Below, piece after piece: positions 33,262 through 42,350 of a DNA stretch of 45,164 nt (its first letter is position 1; each line of letters begins with the position of its first letter). Position numbers and translations under genes: made by a program. Location: positions 1-45,164 of IMG/VR virus record IMGVR_UViG_3300015265_000005; one strand, given 5' to 3'. Under the pieces are notes generated by a model. It had not been told where the DNA came from. It made no database searches and saw nothing but the letters and a program-made list of their open reading frames with translations. The stretch is from a virus.

Positions 33262-34026
33262 TCATCCCCTCGCTTTGTTTTTGATGAGCTGCGCGTAGAC
33301 GTTCGCAGCTTCTACCGGATCAGTCGGCAGTTCCATGTTAGCACTAAGTAATGGCCCACCGTTAGGCCCGCTGTGCTGCACCTTCTCAACAAACATGCCG
33401 TAGAACTTGGCCAGGTTCGCAAGGGCTGCATCCTGATCGCGGGTCATTACCTGCATGCCGTTTTGCGTCTGCTTGATCCCGGCGAACAACCGGCGCCCCT
33501 TCTTGCTCAGCGTGCGGGTGTCGGCAAAGAACGTATCTAGATGACCCTCACCTTTGCACTCGGTGCACTCGGGGTGAGGGCGGAACGTGAAGTTGAAACC
33601 ATAGCCGCCCTCATCGCTCGGGATGGGCATTCGATCTTTGCCGCGTGTCTTGATGGCCAGGCCCAGCGCATAGGCAAATTCACCCTCATCTTTCCACTGA
33701 TAGTGATGACCACGGCCATAGCAGTGGCGGCAGCAGCGTCTCAAGTTGCTCATCAATTCGTTAGGATCAGCCGTTGCGATGTCATGCCAAATCTCAACGA
33801 TGTCCTGAATTCCAAATTTCAAATCTTGCTCAACGTGTTTTTTCGCAGAGCTCAGAGCGGCTTTAACGTGCTTGCGAGCTTTTACAGTCGCAGCGCGCCC
33901 CGAAATTTGTATTTCTGTAAGACCTGAACAACTGAAAGCTGCGCGGTACGCATCGCCAGGTTTGCCACACTCAACGAGTTTTTTGACAAAAATCGCTTCT
34001 TGCTTGCTCAAATTCTTCTTTTTCAC
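33262..34026 (-). CDS. terS: Terminase small subunit with zinc-finger insertion
   Basis: A 254-aa protein with an N-terminal helix-turn-helix (LSKQEAIFVKKLVECGKPGDAYRAAFSC...ISGRAATVKARKHVKAAL, about 6-58), the DNA-binding part of many small terminases. Between residues 98 and 161 two CxxCxGxG motifs (CRHCYGRG and CTECKGEG) form a DnaJ-like zinc centre that ordinary TerS proteins lack. The C-terminus (MTRDQDAALANLAKFYGMFVEKVQHSG) is the usual oligomer helix. It starts with GTG after GGAG (8 nt). It is the first gene of the late operon and lies right beside the repeat array, a sensible pac neighbourhood. Confidence 0.87.
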   Translation of the reverse strand: MKKKNLSKQEAIFVKKLVECGKPGDAYRAAFSCSGLTEIQISGRAATVKARKHVKAALSSAKKHVEQDLKFGIQDIVEIWHDIATADPNELMSNLRRCCRHCYGRGHHYQWKDEGEFAYALGLAIKTRGKDRMPIPSDEGGYGFNFTFRPHPECTECKGEGHLDTFFADTRTLSKKGRRLFAGIKQTQNGMQVMTRDQDAALANLAKFYGMFVEKVQHSGPNGGPLLSANMELPTDPVEAANVYAQLIKNKARG

Positions 34027-34042
34027 AATCTCAGCTCCAAAA

Positions 34043-34332
34043 GGTTACAAGAAAGGTTACAAGCCCCAAATCCTTGCAGCCCTTATAATCCGTGGCCTGC
34101 AGCCCAAAAGGTTACAGGTTACAAGTTGAGTTGACCCGTTTAATGTGTAATGTGAGACATATGACATGACTCATGATGACCACCTATACACATACCCTTT
34201 CAACTCACATACGACTCTATTTTGATTTATCTTGTAACTTGTAACCTTTAGAGAAAGAAAACCAGTAAAACCGGGGCTCTCAGCGGGTTACAAGTTGGGT
34301 TACAAGGATGAACGGTCTTGTAACCTGTAACT
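34043..34332. repeat. Array of ten GGTTACAAG repeats (candidate origin, pac or late-control region)
   Basis: A 317-bp gap without any gene (34027-34343) holds seven exact GGTTACAAG copies: rightward at 34043, 34055, 34117, 34286 and 34298, leftward at 34238 and 34317. There are also three near copies at 34110, 34231 and about 34325. They come in pairs with steps of 12, 7, 7, 12 and about 7 bp. A 105-bp stretch without copies (34126-34230) lies in the middle and includes AT-rich DNA; a perfect TATAAT at 34084-34089 lies between the first two pairs. Paired short iterons of mixed orientation are typical of initiator- or regulator-binding regions. The array lies between the primase-helicase and terS. 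Confidence 0.85.
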
Positions 34333-34343
34333 TTGATCAAATT

Positions 34344-36965
34344 TTAACCAGTTGCTCCAAGCTGCGCCAGGTGCTGAATTTTCGTCAGCTCCAACATTGA
34401 GCGCAGAGTCTCGTTGCTATCACTGGCCACGCTGCCACGCTTCCACCAAACACGGTGCGCCCGACCATCCCACTTGATCACACCCTTTGGCGAGAAACCC
34501 ATTCTCGTGAGCATGTGGTTAACCGCCGTGGTTTTCGGAATGTCCATACCATCCTGTACGCAAACCGTCCTCATAGCCGCTGCTAGCGCGCTGGAGCTTA
34601 AAACGAACTGCCCGACACCCACAGCCCCGGTTTCGATACATTGACGCGCCACGGCTTCGTGAGCGTCTTCCCCGCCCATCTGCATTTCAGCCTTCTCACT
34701 GGTGTGTGGTGCCTTTGAGTTTGGCTTGAAATTCTCACTCACCTGATACTCAAGGAAGAACTTGCGCCACTCACCGCGCCTGGCGTCCTGCATGCTGTCA
34801 AACACGGCGTCATAGTGTTTGGTCAAACCATCCTCAGTGAGCCCCAGGGTGGCTGCCAGGCTGCGCAGGCTGCTGAATGGGGAAAAGATCACCCACCAGC
34901 GCCGGTCATTGTCTTCAAGCGGCACCGCGTCAACAAAGTTGGTGAAGGCGATGTAGTTGGTGACGTTGATGATTGACGCACCAGCCGGTTGGCCTTTGCG
35001 GTTGATCTTGAGCGTATTGTTGGTGATGGGCTCTTTGATGGCGTTGGCCACGGCGTAACGCTTGGCGCCGGTAATCATCAATTCCTCAAACGCCGTCACG
35101 CAGGAACCTTCCTGCCAGTCACCGAAATCTGAGCACACCAGTTTGGCGCCAACGCTGGTGGCGTTCGCAAATCCCATCACTGCTTGCATGGCGTTGATGA
35201 TCATGGATTTGCCGTCACCGGGCATACCTTTGATGATGGGAGCATAACGGCACTTCTTGCCGGGGTTCTGCGCGCACCAGGCCATCCAGTCCAACAGGTT
35301 CAAATACACCTCATTACGGTTGCCGCACAGGGCCTGCATATGGCGCAAGAATGCTTGGATAGCGTCAACCCCGCCCTGCGTGTAACCCAACGCAATCTCA
35401 GGGACGCTGCTCGGGCTGTACAGGTTTGCGTACCAGTGGCCCTCATGATTGAAAATCGGGTCACGACCTGGCAGGTACATGTAGTTTGAAACCGTCGACA
35501 TGTTCCAGCGCTGCAGACACCACTTGGCTGCATCCTCACGGTCACCGTTTGGCTTCTGCGGCATCATGCGCTCAAAGTCAGCGTTGAAGCTGGTGCGCGT
35601 CATCATTTCGGCGTTGATCAGATTAAAGAAGCAATCGTTGGCTTTGACGTAGACGTGACTGTTGGCCCACTCGGGAACAATGCCGCCGTCATCGTCCTCA
35701 ACCACCTGCAGGCGCACCATAGCCTTGCAATCGTTGATGCTGACGGGGAACCCCCAATCACTCATGCGCTTCTTGACGGCGGCAGCCAGCCAGTCACGGT
35801 CAAGGTTGGCAATTGACCTGTCAGCAGCAATCTGCGGCACCACATCGTTGCGCAGCTCTGCGTCATCGTTGGTGCCCATGATCAGCTCATAATACTCTTG
35901 GCGGCTCATGCCAGCCTCAAGCGTCACCGTGGCATCAAGCTTTGCAACCGTCTCTTTGTCCTGGCAAACGTTGCGCGTCTGGCGGCAGGCTTTGGCAACG
36001 GTCAACTCACTGAGGTAGGTACGGTGAGTAGTCCACTTGTCACGCACCAGCTTTGACTGCCACATAAGGCGCGTCATCCGCTCAGCATCACACCCCGTCC
36101 AAAATGCCAGGTGGGAAGCCAGTGCGAAATCAACCCCGGTGCCGTCATACGGCAAGCTGTCAGAGCGCTCAGGGTCAGGGTACTGCGCAGACAAAACCGG
36201 GATGTTGCACGTCCACAAGTCAGCAAAAGTCGCCTTGCCGGAAAACATCCCATCCGCTGAGCGCGACTGCATTGCACGCCTGATCAGCTCAGCATCACTT
36301 TCAGGCCCGCGCCAATCCGCCCTTGGCCCGTTACCGCAGAGCACCGCAACACTCTGCTCGGGCTCAAAGATGGTGCCAGCAATGTAGGTAGCCATTTCCT
36401 GCAGGTGCGTATCTGCAGAGCCCCAAGCCTGGCCACTGGTACCAAAGGCAATGCCACGCCCACTGGTGTAGAACTCAAGATCAACGCCGGGATTCTCAGC
36501 TACCCATTTGCGGGTTGGTCGGGTACGGTGCCCAGGTGGGGGACACCCGCGCCCTATGAGGTGAATGCCCTTTCCACTGGAACTGTACTCAAAAAAGGCC
36601 CCCGGCAGGTTTTGGTAGAACCATGCTGCCCAAGGTGAGAGAGCACCAGCACTGTCAACACAACTGTCAACATCAAGGAACCAATAGCCACAATCAGCAG
36701 TAACCATAAAACCGAGCGTGTAGGCATAGCCGTCAAGCCTCCCAAGGTGCGCGCTGAGCTGAGCCGTGGCCACCGCGTATGATGTCCACGAGTATGGTTT
36801 TTGAGCATCGATCCCCTTGAGCTTACCGTGCTCATCGAACTCAATTCGCCCGTCTGGATGGACTGGCACCTTTATGTATTTCCCCGGCTTTTTGGGGTCG
36901 TGGGCTAGCCGCCACACAAACCATTGATTGACGGCGGTCATTCCCGCCAAAGCAGTTGCAAGCAT
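34344..36965 (-). CDS. PrimPol/SF3 (D5-like) primase-helicase
   Basis: An 873-aa two-part replication protein. The N-terminal archaeo-eukaryotic primase-like domain has YWFLDVDS (Asp98 and Asp100) and SSGKGIHLI (His135). The C-terminal superfamily 3 helicase has Walker A GMPGDGKS (about 580-587), VTAFEEL as Walker B, and YIAFTNFVDAVPLEDNDRRWWVIF as sensor and arginine-finger region. It should prime and unwind at the phage origin, working with the family B polymerase. The second ATG of ATGACAATG has AAGG 9 nt away, so I start at 36965; upstream extensions reach into the SLOG gene. The adjacent repeat array fits an origin next to its own helicase. Confidence 0.92.
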   Translation of the reverse strand: MLATALAGMTAVNQWFVWRLAHDPKKPGKYIKVPVHPDGRIEFDEHGKLKGIDAQKPYSWTSYAVATAQLSAHLGRLDGYAYTLGFMVTADCGYWFLDVDSCVDSAGALSPWAAWFYQNLPGAFFEYSSSGKGIHLIGRGCPPPGHRTRPTRKWVAENPGVDLEFYTSGRGIAFGTSGQAWGSADTHLQEMATYIAGTIFEPEQSVAVLCGNGPRADWRGPESDAELIRRAMQSRSADGMFSGKATFADLWTCNIPVLSAQYPDPERSDSLPYDGTGVDFALASHLAFWTGCDAERMTRLMWQSKLVRDKWTTHRTYLSELTVAKACRQTRNVCQDKETVAKLDATVTLEAGMSRQEYYELIMGTNDDAELRNDVVPQIAADRSIANLDRDWLAAAVKKRMSDWGFPVSINDCKAMVRLQVVEDDDGGIVPEWANSHVYVKANDCFFNLINAEMMTRTSFNADFERMMPQKPNGDREDAAKWCLQRWNMSTVSNYMYLPGRDPIFNHEGHWYANLYSPSSVPEIALGYTQGGVDAIQAFLRHMQALCGNRNEVYLNLLDWMAWCAQNPGKKCRYAPIIKGMPGDGKSMIINAMQAVMGFANATSVGAKLVCSDFGDWQEGSCVTAFEELMITGAKRYAVANAIKEPITNNTLKINRKGQPAGASIINVTNYIAFTNFVDAVPLEDNDRRWWVIFSPFSSLRSLAATLGLTEDGLTKHYDAVFDSMQDARRGEWRKFFLEYQVSENFKPNSKAPHTSEKAEMQMGGEDAHEAVARQCIETGAVGVGQFVLSSSALAAAMRTVCVQDGMDIPKTTAVNHMLTRMGFSPKGVIKWDGRAHRVWWKRGSVASDSNETLRSMLELTKIQHLAQLGATG

Positions 36966-36967
36966 TG

Positions 36968-37435
36968 TCATTTGCCTTGTTCTAGTAGGTTGTCGATGGC
37001 AACGCCACGCTTGGTTGCATACTTGATGCAATTGGCGGCGCCACCTGGCGAACCGTCCCACATCGCCATAACGCGGGTGCAGCGGTCAACCATCCATTCG
37101 TTGCGAAGCTGCATCGCGTACCCGCAGTAACCGCCAGGGAACACAATGGTTTGGGATGAGCACAAGGCAAGCAGGGCGCCATAACTGGCTTGTGCTTCAA
37201 GTGGCCACGCCTTTTCCTGCCCTGCAAATGGTATTGCCGCGTGAACCGGGATACCCAAACTGACGGCTGCCCAGCCAACGGCCTGATCCCAACCAAGCGC
37301 CATGCCGACAATCACTGCATCTGGTTTTGTACGGGTGAGATATTGGGCTGCGATAGCCCTTAGGTTGATTGCGGCGTCTGCCCCATAGCCGCCTAGTTTG
37401 TCTGGCCTATGGCCTGTTGCACTGATGATTAGCAT
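36968..37435 (-). CDS. SLOG/DUF1273-like (YspA-type) protein
   Basis: A 155-aa Rossmann-like protein. Signature parts are ISATGHRPDKLGGYG, VIVGMALGWDQAVGWAA, HAAIPFAGQEKAWP and AMWDGSPGGAANCI, typical of the SLOG superfamily, which binds nucleotides or nucleotide-derived signals. In hosts some members act in defence; phage copies are common but unassigned. It could sense or bind a nucleotide messenger (inference). The second ATG (37435) suits AAGG at 9 nt. A long structured leader precedes it, and it overlaps the primase start. Confidence 0.85.
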   Translation of the reverse strand: MLIISATGHRPDKLGGYGADAAINLRAIAAQYLTRTKPDAVIVGMALGWDQAVGWAAVSLGIPVHAAIPFAGQEKAWPLEAQASYGALLALCSSQTIVFPGGYCGYAMQLRNEWMVDRCTRVMAMWDGSPGGAANCIKYATKRGVAIDNLLEQGK

Positions 37436-38799: not shown

Positions 38800-39215
38800 T
38801 TGCTCAGTGCCTCACGTAGCTGGATGTATTCGGCGCGCTCGTACTGGTCAAGGCCAACTTTGCGGTTGCGGTCTGCAAGTTCCGCAAATCGGTCAACGCG
38901 GCTTTTGCTATTGACAACAAAGTCATCACCGCTTTTGACATTGGTGACGACCACCGGGCCAGCTTCAACAATAGGTGTTGGCACGCAGCGGCAATTTAAA
39001 GTGCGGGCGTCTGGCGGCGTAACCCAAGCAACCTGAGGCTGAGCGCATGCAGCCTCATACTCGTTGGACTTCTCAACGCGCCCTGCAGCTTTACCGACCT
39101 TGTAACCCCGGTTATACATTTCGGTTGTAGCCAACAGGATCACGTAGATTGGCAGCCACAGGCCCGAGGTCAGAACAGTCAGCAGGATATGCAGCCAGTG
39201 CTTTACAGTTTTCAT
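38796..39215 (-). CDS. Small membrane protein with a superinfection-immunity-like N-terminus
   Basis: A 139-aa protein. Residues 5-30 (KHWLHILLTVLTSGLWLPIYVILL) are one strong membrane segment with the LTxGLWLP pattern that recalls superinfection-immunity/DUF4234-type proteins; these normally have two segments, so the match is loose. The rest is soluble and contains NCRC. If the likeness is real it could block DNA entry by related phages (inference). Confidence 0.7.
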   Translation of the reverse strand: MKTVKHWLHILLTVLTSGLWLPIYVILLATTEMYNRGYKVGKAAGRVEKSNEYEAACAQPQVAWVTPPDARTLNCRCVPTPIVEAGPVVVTNVKSGDDFVVNSKSRVDRFAELADRNRKVGLDQYERAEYIQLREALSK

Positions 39216-41080: not shown

Positions 41081-41914
41081 TCACTTGCGCACCTCATCGA
41101 CCTCAGCCAGCAACGCCCGAGCAGCATCAAGCTCATCAGGCAAAGGCTCATGCGTTCCGCTGCACTGCCGCAGGCTGGCAATCAGACGCTCTACCAGTGC
41201 CTCAGGGATGCGCTTAGGTTTGAGCACAGCGTTGGTCACCTTGGTCTTGCCGTTCGCCCTGGCCACGACAAGAGCTGCGCCCAGCACCTCACCGGCCTTG
41301 TCGCCGTGAGTCTTCACAGCCTGCGCGGCAATGGTTGGCTTGACCTCACCGGCCTTTATCATTTCGTGCACGTCGGTGTTGCCGCTGGCCAGGGTGAGAA
41401 TGCGCTGAATCGTGGCCAACTTCTCACCGCTGCGCTCAGCAATTTGTGCAGGTGACCAGCCAAAGGCAATCAGCTTGTTATAAACCCGCCCGAGCCCCAG
41501 CGGGTCAACTTCAGCGCGCTTGGTGCTGGTTGCCTGGCGCAATAGCTGCTCGGCATCGTTCCCGATAAAAGGCTTTACAGGTATCCAGGCTTCAAGGATT
41601 TCCGGGTTTTCCTTGTTTGGGGTACGCGGCAATGTTCCGCGCTCATCCATCTTGCGGTAGGCAAAGCGCCGGGTGTGACCTTGCACAACCCAAACACCAC
41701 CCTCAGCACGCGGAACAACCTCAAGCGCTTCGACGGTGCCGCCTGCTTCAAGGTACGCAACCAACTCGTCAATGTCTTGTTGGTACTTTGGCGAATCATA
41801 GTCACGCACGATGTTAAAGCCGGGGCGCTCGTGGATATCCTCAAGGCGCACCGAGTTAGCTTCGCCGCGTTTTACCGTGCCGTCATGGCGCATTGATTTA
41901 AAGGTTGGTTGCAT
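41081..41914 (-). CDS. ParB-like protein
   Basis: A 277-aa protein. The ParB/sulfiredoxin N-terminal fold shows VRLEDIHERPGFNIVRDYD (about 23-41) and WVVQGHTRRFAYRKMDERGT (about 75-94). A helix-turn-helix follows (FGWSPAQIAERSGEKLATIQRILTLA, about 151-176). Lytic phage ParB-like proteins act as DNA binders or nucleases rather than in partition; no ParA gene is present. The GHxR core is intact, so CTP or DNA handling is plausible. ATG 41914 is preferred to a TTG at 41944. Confidence 0.85.
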   Translation of the reverse strand: MQPTFKSMRHDGTVKRGEANSVRLEDIHERPGFNIVRDYDSPKYQQDIDELVAYLEAGGTVEALEVVPRAEGGVWVVQGHTRRFAYRKMDERGTLPRTPNKENPEILEAWIPVKPFIGNDAEQLLRQATSTKRAEVDPLGLGRVYNKLIAFGWSPAQIAERSGEKLATIQRILTLASGNTDVHEMIKAGEVKPTIAAQAVKTHGDKAGEVLGAALVVARANGKTKVTNAVLKPKRIPEALVERLIASLRQCSGTHEPLPDELDAARALLAEVDEVRK

Positions 41915-42350
41915 TGTTGTTGTCTCGCTCTGCTGTATCGCCAATCGGAAAGAAATCGTTTAGGAATTGAACTTGTTTCATTTGAAAGCTGTGACACTTC
42001 TTTGCGTTTTCGTACGCAGCCAACAACTTTGGCGTACGGCGCTCGCTGGTGCCAAAGTTTACTTTCTTTTCAAAGTACCTGATGCGCTCAGAGTAATACA
42101 GAACACCTTTCCAGTGATGCAGCCGCAAAGCGCGCAGACCTTCAAGACGCGCAACATCTGCGACAAGTTCAACACTCACAGCGTGTTCTATGTCGTCAAG
42201 CGCAGCAATCTCATGCTTGTAATAGCTAACGTTGTCACCGTCGTTATCGTTTGCAGCAACTCCAAGCACACAAAGCAACGCCCTGCGCAACGGGGCAATA
42301 TGCCCGTTGATCATTTCGGCAAGAGAGCCGTGACCTTTTAAATGTATCAC
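41898..42350 (-). CDS. Hypothetical helical protein (150 aa)
   Basis: GTG start at 42350 overlapping the upstream stop. It is helical and charged (ALDDIEHAVSVELVADVARLEGLRALRLHHWKGVLYYSERIRYFEKKV), with a short polar, Asn-rich C-terminus. No Cys cluster, signal or membrane segment. Unknown role in the early operon. Confidence 0.72.
   Translation of the reverse strand: MIHLKGHGSLAEMINGHIAPLRRALLCVLGVAANDNDGDNVSYYKHEIAALDDIEHAVSVELVADVARLEGLRALRLHHWKGVLYYSERIRYFEKKVNFGTSERRTPKLLAAYENAKKCHSFQMKQVQFLNDFFPIGDTAERDNNNATNL

Follow-up and report, generated by a model that had tools for sequence, protein, structure and literature searches.

A conserved iteron array beside an NrS-1-type primase-helicase gene as a probable P4/PICI-type replication origin of tailed phages

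Results

The locus described here lies in the window, a 45,164-bp uncultivated virus record that was analysed over its whole length. A gene for a primase-polymerase/SF3 helicase of 905 aa (34344–37061, - strand) and the terminase small subunit gene, terS (33262–34026, - strand; Pfam Terminase_2, 2.9e-7), are separated by a gap of 317 bp (34027–34343), between the primase stop at 34344 and the terS start at 34026. Ten sites of the GGTTACAAG type are found in this gap, seven of them exact and three near (GGTTACAGG at 34110, AGTTACAAG at 34231 and AGTTACAGG at 34324), and these form five pairs with steps, from left to right, of 12, 7, 7, 12 and 7 bp. Beginning at the primase, pair A (34317–34332, - strand) has sites at 34317 and 34324 with a step of 7 bp, and pair B (34286–34306, + strand; sites 34286 and 34298, step 12) is the first block of what is described below as the conserved core. 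The B-C spacer (34247–34285, - strand) is 39 bp long, rich in T and pyrimidines and a candidate melting site, with an AT content in the window of only 0.54. Pair C (34231–34246, - strand; sites 34231 and 34238, step 7) is followed by the C-D spacer (34126–34230), a second AT-rich stretch of 105 bp, then by pair D (34110–34125, + strand; sites 34110 and 34117, step 7), which is inverted relative to C, and finally by the outer pair E (34043–34063, + strand; sites 34043 and 34055, step 12), which is found in the close clade of relatives.

The original prediction had described these ten sites in five pairs, and the recount confirms them. One 9-mer occurs seven times within 317 bp, whereas in 40 dinucleotide shuffles of the whole window no 9-mer reached more than four copies in a segment of that length, and matches to the 9-mer with at most one mismatch number 24 against 7.1 expected. 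No second array was found within the window; a lone exact copy of GGTTACAAG inside a gene (39099–39107) is probably due to chance. GC skew has no turning point at the array and is uninformative as a sign of an origin, and an Rfam scan gave no match. The C-D spacer also holds a TATAGGTGGTCATCAT element (34173–34188, - strand), situated between pairs C and D, which is kept in nearly all members of the close clade but is not conserved in distant phages. It includes GTGG, a sequence that is usable as a priming site by the NrS-1 polymerase (PMC8718748).

The primase-helicase contains an NrS-1-type helix-bundle domain, a DUF5906 helicase and a C-terminal winged helix, with Pfam matches above the curated cut-off for NrS1-1_pol-like_HBD (1.6e-17) and DUF5906 (1.2e-12) and a PHROG match to primases. 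The winged-helix domain (residues 797–905, encoded at 34344–34673, - strand), described here from AlphaFold2 models, covariation and a blind test, belongs to no Pfam family. The models have a pLDDT of 93 for residues 506–905 and of 88 for residues 797–905, and the best solved match of the C-terminal domain is the origin-bound winged helix of Cdc6/Orc1, although at E=0.002 this match is weak. For the model of residues 506–905, the C-terminal region of NrS-1 is the first match, and PriRep1 and the SaPI5 primase-helicase come lower. Recognition in the manner of RFX, with the wing in the groove of a GGYAAC half site, was considered and dropped, because RFX1 falls outside the 50 best matches to the C-terminal model, of which Cdc6/Orc1 is the first. 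In two AlphaFold2 models the wing strands span residues 856–864 and 867–874, and residues 861, 863 and 870 are therefore on the wing hairpin; from the hairpin register and the strand limits, 861 would face 870, with 863 on the same side.

In the original prediction, absence of the array from close relatives with the same gene order was to count against it; instead, all ten IMG/VR contigs of the close clade (L001–L010), whose primases are 69–88% identical to that of the window, have it at the same place and in the same arrangement, with the letters differing in some. Sites also follow the primase gene in more distant phages, including the Pseudomonas phage Psp6 (L046; primase 45% identical), which has GGTAACAAG-type sites with terS 1.3 kb further on, the Stenotrophomonas phage Silvanus (GGTTACAGG sites, an endolysin gene next), Curvibacter phage PCA1 (GGTTCCAAG sites), the Burkholderia phages AH2 and BcepNazgul (GGTCCGAAT sites), and the chi-like phages Seifer and SP-088, where GGTTACAAG sites lie past one small HTH gene. 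The first sizeable downstream gene varies between lineages, and may encode TerS, a class-19 chitinase-like endolysin, an SNF2 helicase, a VRR-NUC protein, a Mor-like protein or an HTH protein. In Psp6 the primase is annotated as two overlapping genes (4965–7507 of L046), which reflects a frameshift or a sequencing error.

The association between array and primase was also recovered from DNA alone. A scan with the 16-mer GGTTACAGGTTACAAG, which used no protein information, returned 27 contigs, one of which (L011) is the contig of L002. A true array is present in 7 of the 26 others, and an NrS-1-like primase ends beside the array in all seven; the primase is absent from the remaining 19, among them two low-complexity GTTACA-rich loci. 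Two loci that were array-like by count (L029 and L032) were rejected as low-complexity repeats. A first contig scan with one protein query gave no match, and the protein-based scans comprise 88 loci. With an array defined as an 8-mer repeated at least four times (seen in 0/40 shuffles), a significantly repeated 8-mer is present around the primase stop in 54/76 regions, compared with 0/62 control regions further downstream, 0/78 inside the gene and 6/65 upstream. By this test about a quarter of the primase 3' regions in this branch have no significant array. There is likewise no array adjoining the primase of NrS-1 itself, the biochemical prototype, nor beside primases with a different C-terminus (those of Klebsiella JD001, Edwardsiella PEi21, Acinetobacter LAPP1 and others), and the array system therefore belongs to a single branch of this family. 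Several Shewanella, Edwardsiella, Klebsiella and Acinetobacter phages (L065, L066, L069 and L070) have a TTGACGNNTNCGTCA palindrome immediately 3' of the primase gene, where it overlaps a promoter-like -35. A TetR-like gene is annotated upstream of the primase in L065 and L069, and the palindrome is a possible TetR operator.

The geometry was compared across a dereplicated set of 57 arrays. Among same-strand steps, 7 and 12 bp occur most often, so that the pairing of sites at two different distances, noted in the original prediction, is both real and conserved; such pairs might bind dimers on one DNA face, as was suggested there. Divergent pairs cluster at 47–48 bp. Read in the orientation of the primase, the core is < 12 <, 48 bp from start to start, > 7 >, about 100 bp, < 7 <. 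The B-C arrangement is found in 46/57 arrays, with D as well in 44, and the divergent B-to-C start distance falls at 46–49 bp in 43/57, against a random mean of 11.1 and a maximum of 22. Mean AT content is 0.65 for the B-C spacers and 0.62 for the C-D spacers, compared with 0.50 for the region, and the B-C spacer strand is rich in thymine or pyrimidines across the arrays. This layout is kept among primases with identity down to approximately 30%. Strings near CTCAAACCCTTGTTTTT or AAGTTGTTGATTT recur in the 39-bp B-C spacers of many arrays from unrelated phages (for example L046, L088 and L093), and are possibly a melting or helicase-loading element.

Despite this constant layout, the motif itself differs between phages, with GGTTACAAG, GGTCACAAG, GGTCCCAAG, GGTAACAGG, GGTGACAAG, GGTCGGAG and more types represented. 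Within the close clade, GGTTACAAG is used in the window and in L001, L002 and L008, GGTTACAGG in L007, GGTCACAAG in L003, GGTCCCAAG in L004, L006 and L010, and GGTAACAGG in L005 and L009. A change of motif affects all or most sites of an array at once, which is the expectation if one protein must read every site; mixed arrays do exist, with L004 and L010 retaining a few GGTAACAAG sites. Comparison of recombinants reveals that the motif tracks the C-terminus of the primase rather than TerS. L007 and L010 are 97% identical over the N-terminal part of the primase, but have C-termini that are only 80% identical and different motifs, whereas L004 and L010 share the motif and a C-terminal 110 residues that are 100% identical, with an N-terminal part that is only 88% identical. 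Over the N-terminal part, L009 and L004 are 97% identical, yet the motif and C-terminus (99%) of L009 are those of L005, and the TerS proteins of L005 and L009 are only 89% identical though motif and primase C-terminus are shared. As the array adjoins the coding end of the C-terminus, linkage alone would give some co-inheritance, but not the agreement between independent lineages.

Motif replacement tracks three residues of the wing, 861 with base 4, 863 with base 1 and 870 with base 6. At base 4, T tends to accompany V, I, A, P or S at residue 861, A to accompany L or Q, and G to accompany R; at base 6, C is associated with R870 and other bases with T, Q, M and similar residues; a leading G accompanies K863, and motifs starting TGT, CCA or otherwise accompany R, W or Y at 863. 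Because a single GGTGAC clade dominated simple mutual information, changes were counted on a tree of the helicase part alone, and the analysis was supplemented by a blind test. Among the 669 columns, 870 comes out on top for base 6 on this tree (6/7 changes), and 861 comes sixth for base 4, with five columns outside the wing ranking higher; no wing column is first in the co-change ranking for base 5. In contingency tests with each of 31 distinct states counted once, the associations are 863 with base 1 (p=1.4e-5), 861 with base 4 (p=1.5e-4) and 870 with base 6 (p=3.5e-4). In these Fisher tests the motifs of six non-GGT types and of L163 were aligned by hand, and L095, L125 and JS26, the motifs of which are not confidently alignable, were left out.

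Because the residue classes had been chosen after seeing the training data, the rules were fixed before two new scans, which yielded 49 new dereplicated loci, 35 of them with significant arrays. Base 6 was predicted correctly for 18/20 alignable loci (0.64 when shuffled, p=0.0027) and base 4 for 11/15 (0.35 when shuffled, p=0.0035); after collapsing one near-duplicate lineage, these p values become 0.005 and 0.024, respectively. Exceptions to the residue-base rules are AH2 and Nazgul, in which Arg863 occurs with GG, as well as L165, L314, L290, L303, L170 and L241.

Discussion

The array is very probably a replication origin of the P4/PICI type, or its essential initiator-binding part as crr is in P4, with the primase-helicase as the initiator. 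The sequences show the array, its conserved layout, its link to the primase and the concerted change of motif and wing residues, whereas binding, melting, direction and origin activity are inferred. The primase-helicase, encoded just upstream, would bind the array through the beta-wing of its C-terminal winged helix, with one protein per GGTNNNARG site. In the wing, the leading GG is associated with Lys863, base 4 with residue 861 and the C at base 6 with Arg870. Inverted pairs flanking the AT-rich spacers may let two SF3 hexamers assemble face to face and melt the AT-rich spacer, upon which bidirectional replication would start, and the primase domain of the same polypeptide could make the first primers. 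Binding by the C-terminal domain, assembly of hexamers, melting and a primed start are all proposed by analogy with the families concerned. Replication may start inside the array, or the array may be the required partner of another site, as crr is in P4.

As protein and array change together, each phage type would have its own origin specificity. The repeat and a few amino acids change together in more than 80 related viruses, and the DNA-reading code is therefore partly readable. A further proposal, which we regard as evenly balanced, is that residues 863, 861 and 870 make up such a code for bases 1, 4 and 6, and that phages switch origin specificity by changing those few residues together with all ten sites, giving many mutually incompatible replicons among otherwise similar phages. 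Under the same joint proposal, Arg would go with G or C:G, Gln or Leu with A, and small hydrophobic residues with T.

The closest parallels are found in satellites. In P4, the primase-helicase alpha binds the repeats of crr, the cis required region for replication, which is annotated directly 3' of alpha, as the array is directly 3' of the primase in the window. The GGTGAACAG sites of crr follow the grammar > 13 < 7 < 11 < 44 > 9 > twice, and the order > < < < (44) > > resembles the > > < < (48) > > of the window. P4 differs in being a satellite with a TOPRIM-type primase (PMC4234260), in its iteron core and in a second origin region that lies apart from alpha; the P4 helicase matches the window-type profile only weakly. 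In PICI origins an AT-rich region 3' of rep is flanked by two iteron sets, with function tested in E. coli (PMC6092414), and the same layout directly 3' of the proposed initiator gene is seen in the window. The C-terminal domain of SaPI Rep is reported to be used for iterons just downstream of the rep gene, and the C-terminal domain of Cch2 binds such repeats in vitro (PMC7581432); the SaPI5 primase-helicase and PriRep1 are themselves among the structural matches to the window primase. PICIs are satellites without a full virion gene set, whereas the array here is present in complete tailed phages with NrS-1-type primases, and the window encodes a terminase, portal, head protease, major head protein, tail sheath and tape measure, in addition to a DNA polymerase and a gp2.5-like SSB. 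With repeats directly 3' of the proposed initiator gene, iteron sets flanking an AT-rich stretch and an adjacent gene for an SF3-type helicase, the system works like, and by layout belongs with, the initiator-iteron origins of the P4/PICI type, but it is not a PICI.

NrS-1 resembles the window primase in having an AEP primase, a helix-bundle domain and a DUF5906 helicase in the same order, but has no array beside the gene. Its 8-nt priming site, TTTGGTTA, was rejected as the array motif, as it has 0 matches in the window. The fold of the NrS-1 C-terminal tail has been described as novel (PMC7102993). In the PLE satellites of Vibrio cholerae, the DNA-binding domain of the initiator RepA is swapped together with the iteron origin to which it is matched, as one module (PMC8263062), although the initiator (RepA_N) is unrelated and the iterons are different.

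Three roles had been offered for the array in the original prediction, namely an origin, a pac site or the control region of the late operon, and it is the origin, bound by the primase-helicase, that is favoured, as the array follows the primase. The variable downstream gene removes the pac reading and most of the late-operon reading. It is improbable that the array is instead an operator of the late or primase operon, bound by the primase-helicase or by another regulator such as a TetR-like or ParB-like protein. The array does lie upstream of a late gene cluster led by terS, initiators of the P4 type can autoregulate too, and the window has a ParB-like gene, but a scan of the gap for promoters of the sigma-70 type gave no match, the array is downstream of the primase and kept beside unrelated downstream genes, and no other covarying protein was found when primase and TerS were compared. 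The ParB-like partition protein (phrog_1033, 2e-56; 41081–41944) is encoded here in a tailed phage.

Still less probable is that the array works as a stem-loop origin in extruded form, of the kind put forward for pRN1 and phage BIP-1, which have AEP-SF3-winged-helix proteins. A single strand of the array folds far better than shuffles (z=-4.6), and pRN1 requires a stem-loop 3' of orf904 (PMC4234260), but the inverted iterons by themselves account for the fold score, and the features common to the relatives are the sequence of the sites, their order and steps and their match to the wing residues, which is more than a symmetrical fold; a pRN1-type origin has a conserved stem-loop 3' of the replication gene and no iterons, whereas iterons are present here. 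That the array is a pac site bound by TerS for packaging is highly unlikely and largely refuted: the start of terS does lie 17 bp away from the array in the window, and in the close clade terS is the gene that comes next, and TerS proteins are DNA-binding and often variable, but terS is remote in Psp6, the endolysin gene is next in Silvanus, SNF2 helicase, VRR-NUC, Mor-like or HTH genes adjoin the array in other lineages, and the motif does not follow TerS, which is thus judged a neighbour outside the system.

If the iteron origin with the primase-helicase as initiator is true, an origin and an initiator would be assigned for a broad set of tailed phages, including the chi-like Casjensviridae AH2, BcepNazgul, Seifer and SP-088. 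No description of the origins of these primase-annotated phages was found in the open-access full-text literature, though an earlier description is possible. A layout that was called unique to PICI satellites in 2018 would then be present in complete phages also, and a function would be suggested for the C-terminal tail domain of this class of primase. The more than 15 iteron core types with their matched proteins form a natural data set for studying how the origin specificity of a self-loading helicase shifts, and the possible pressures behind such change include satellites and origin-directed nucleases such as Odn.
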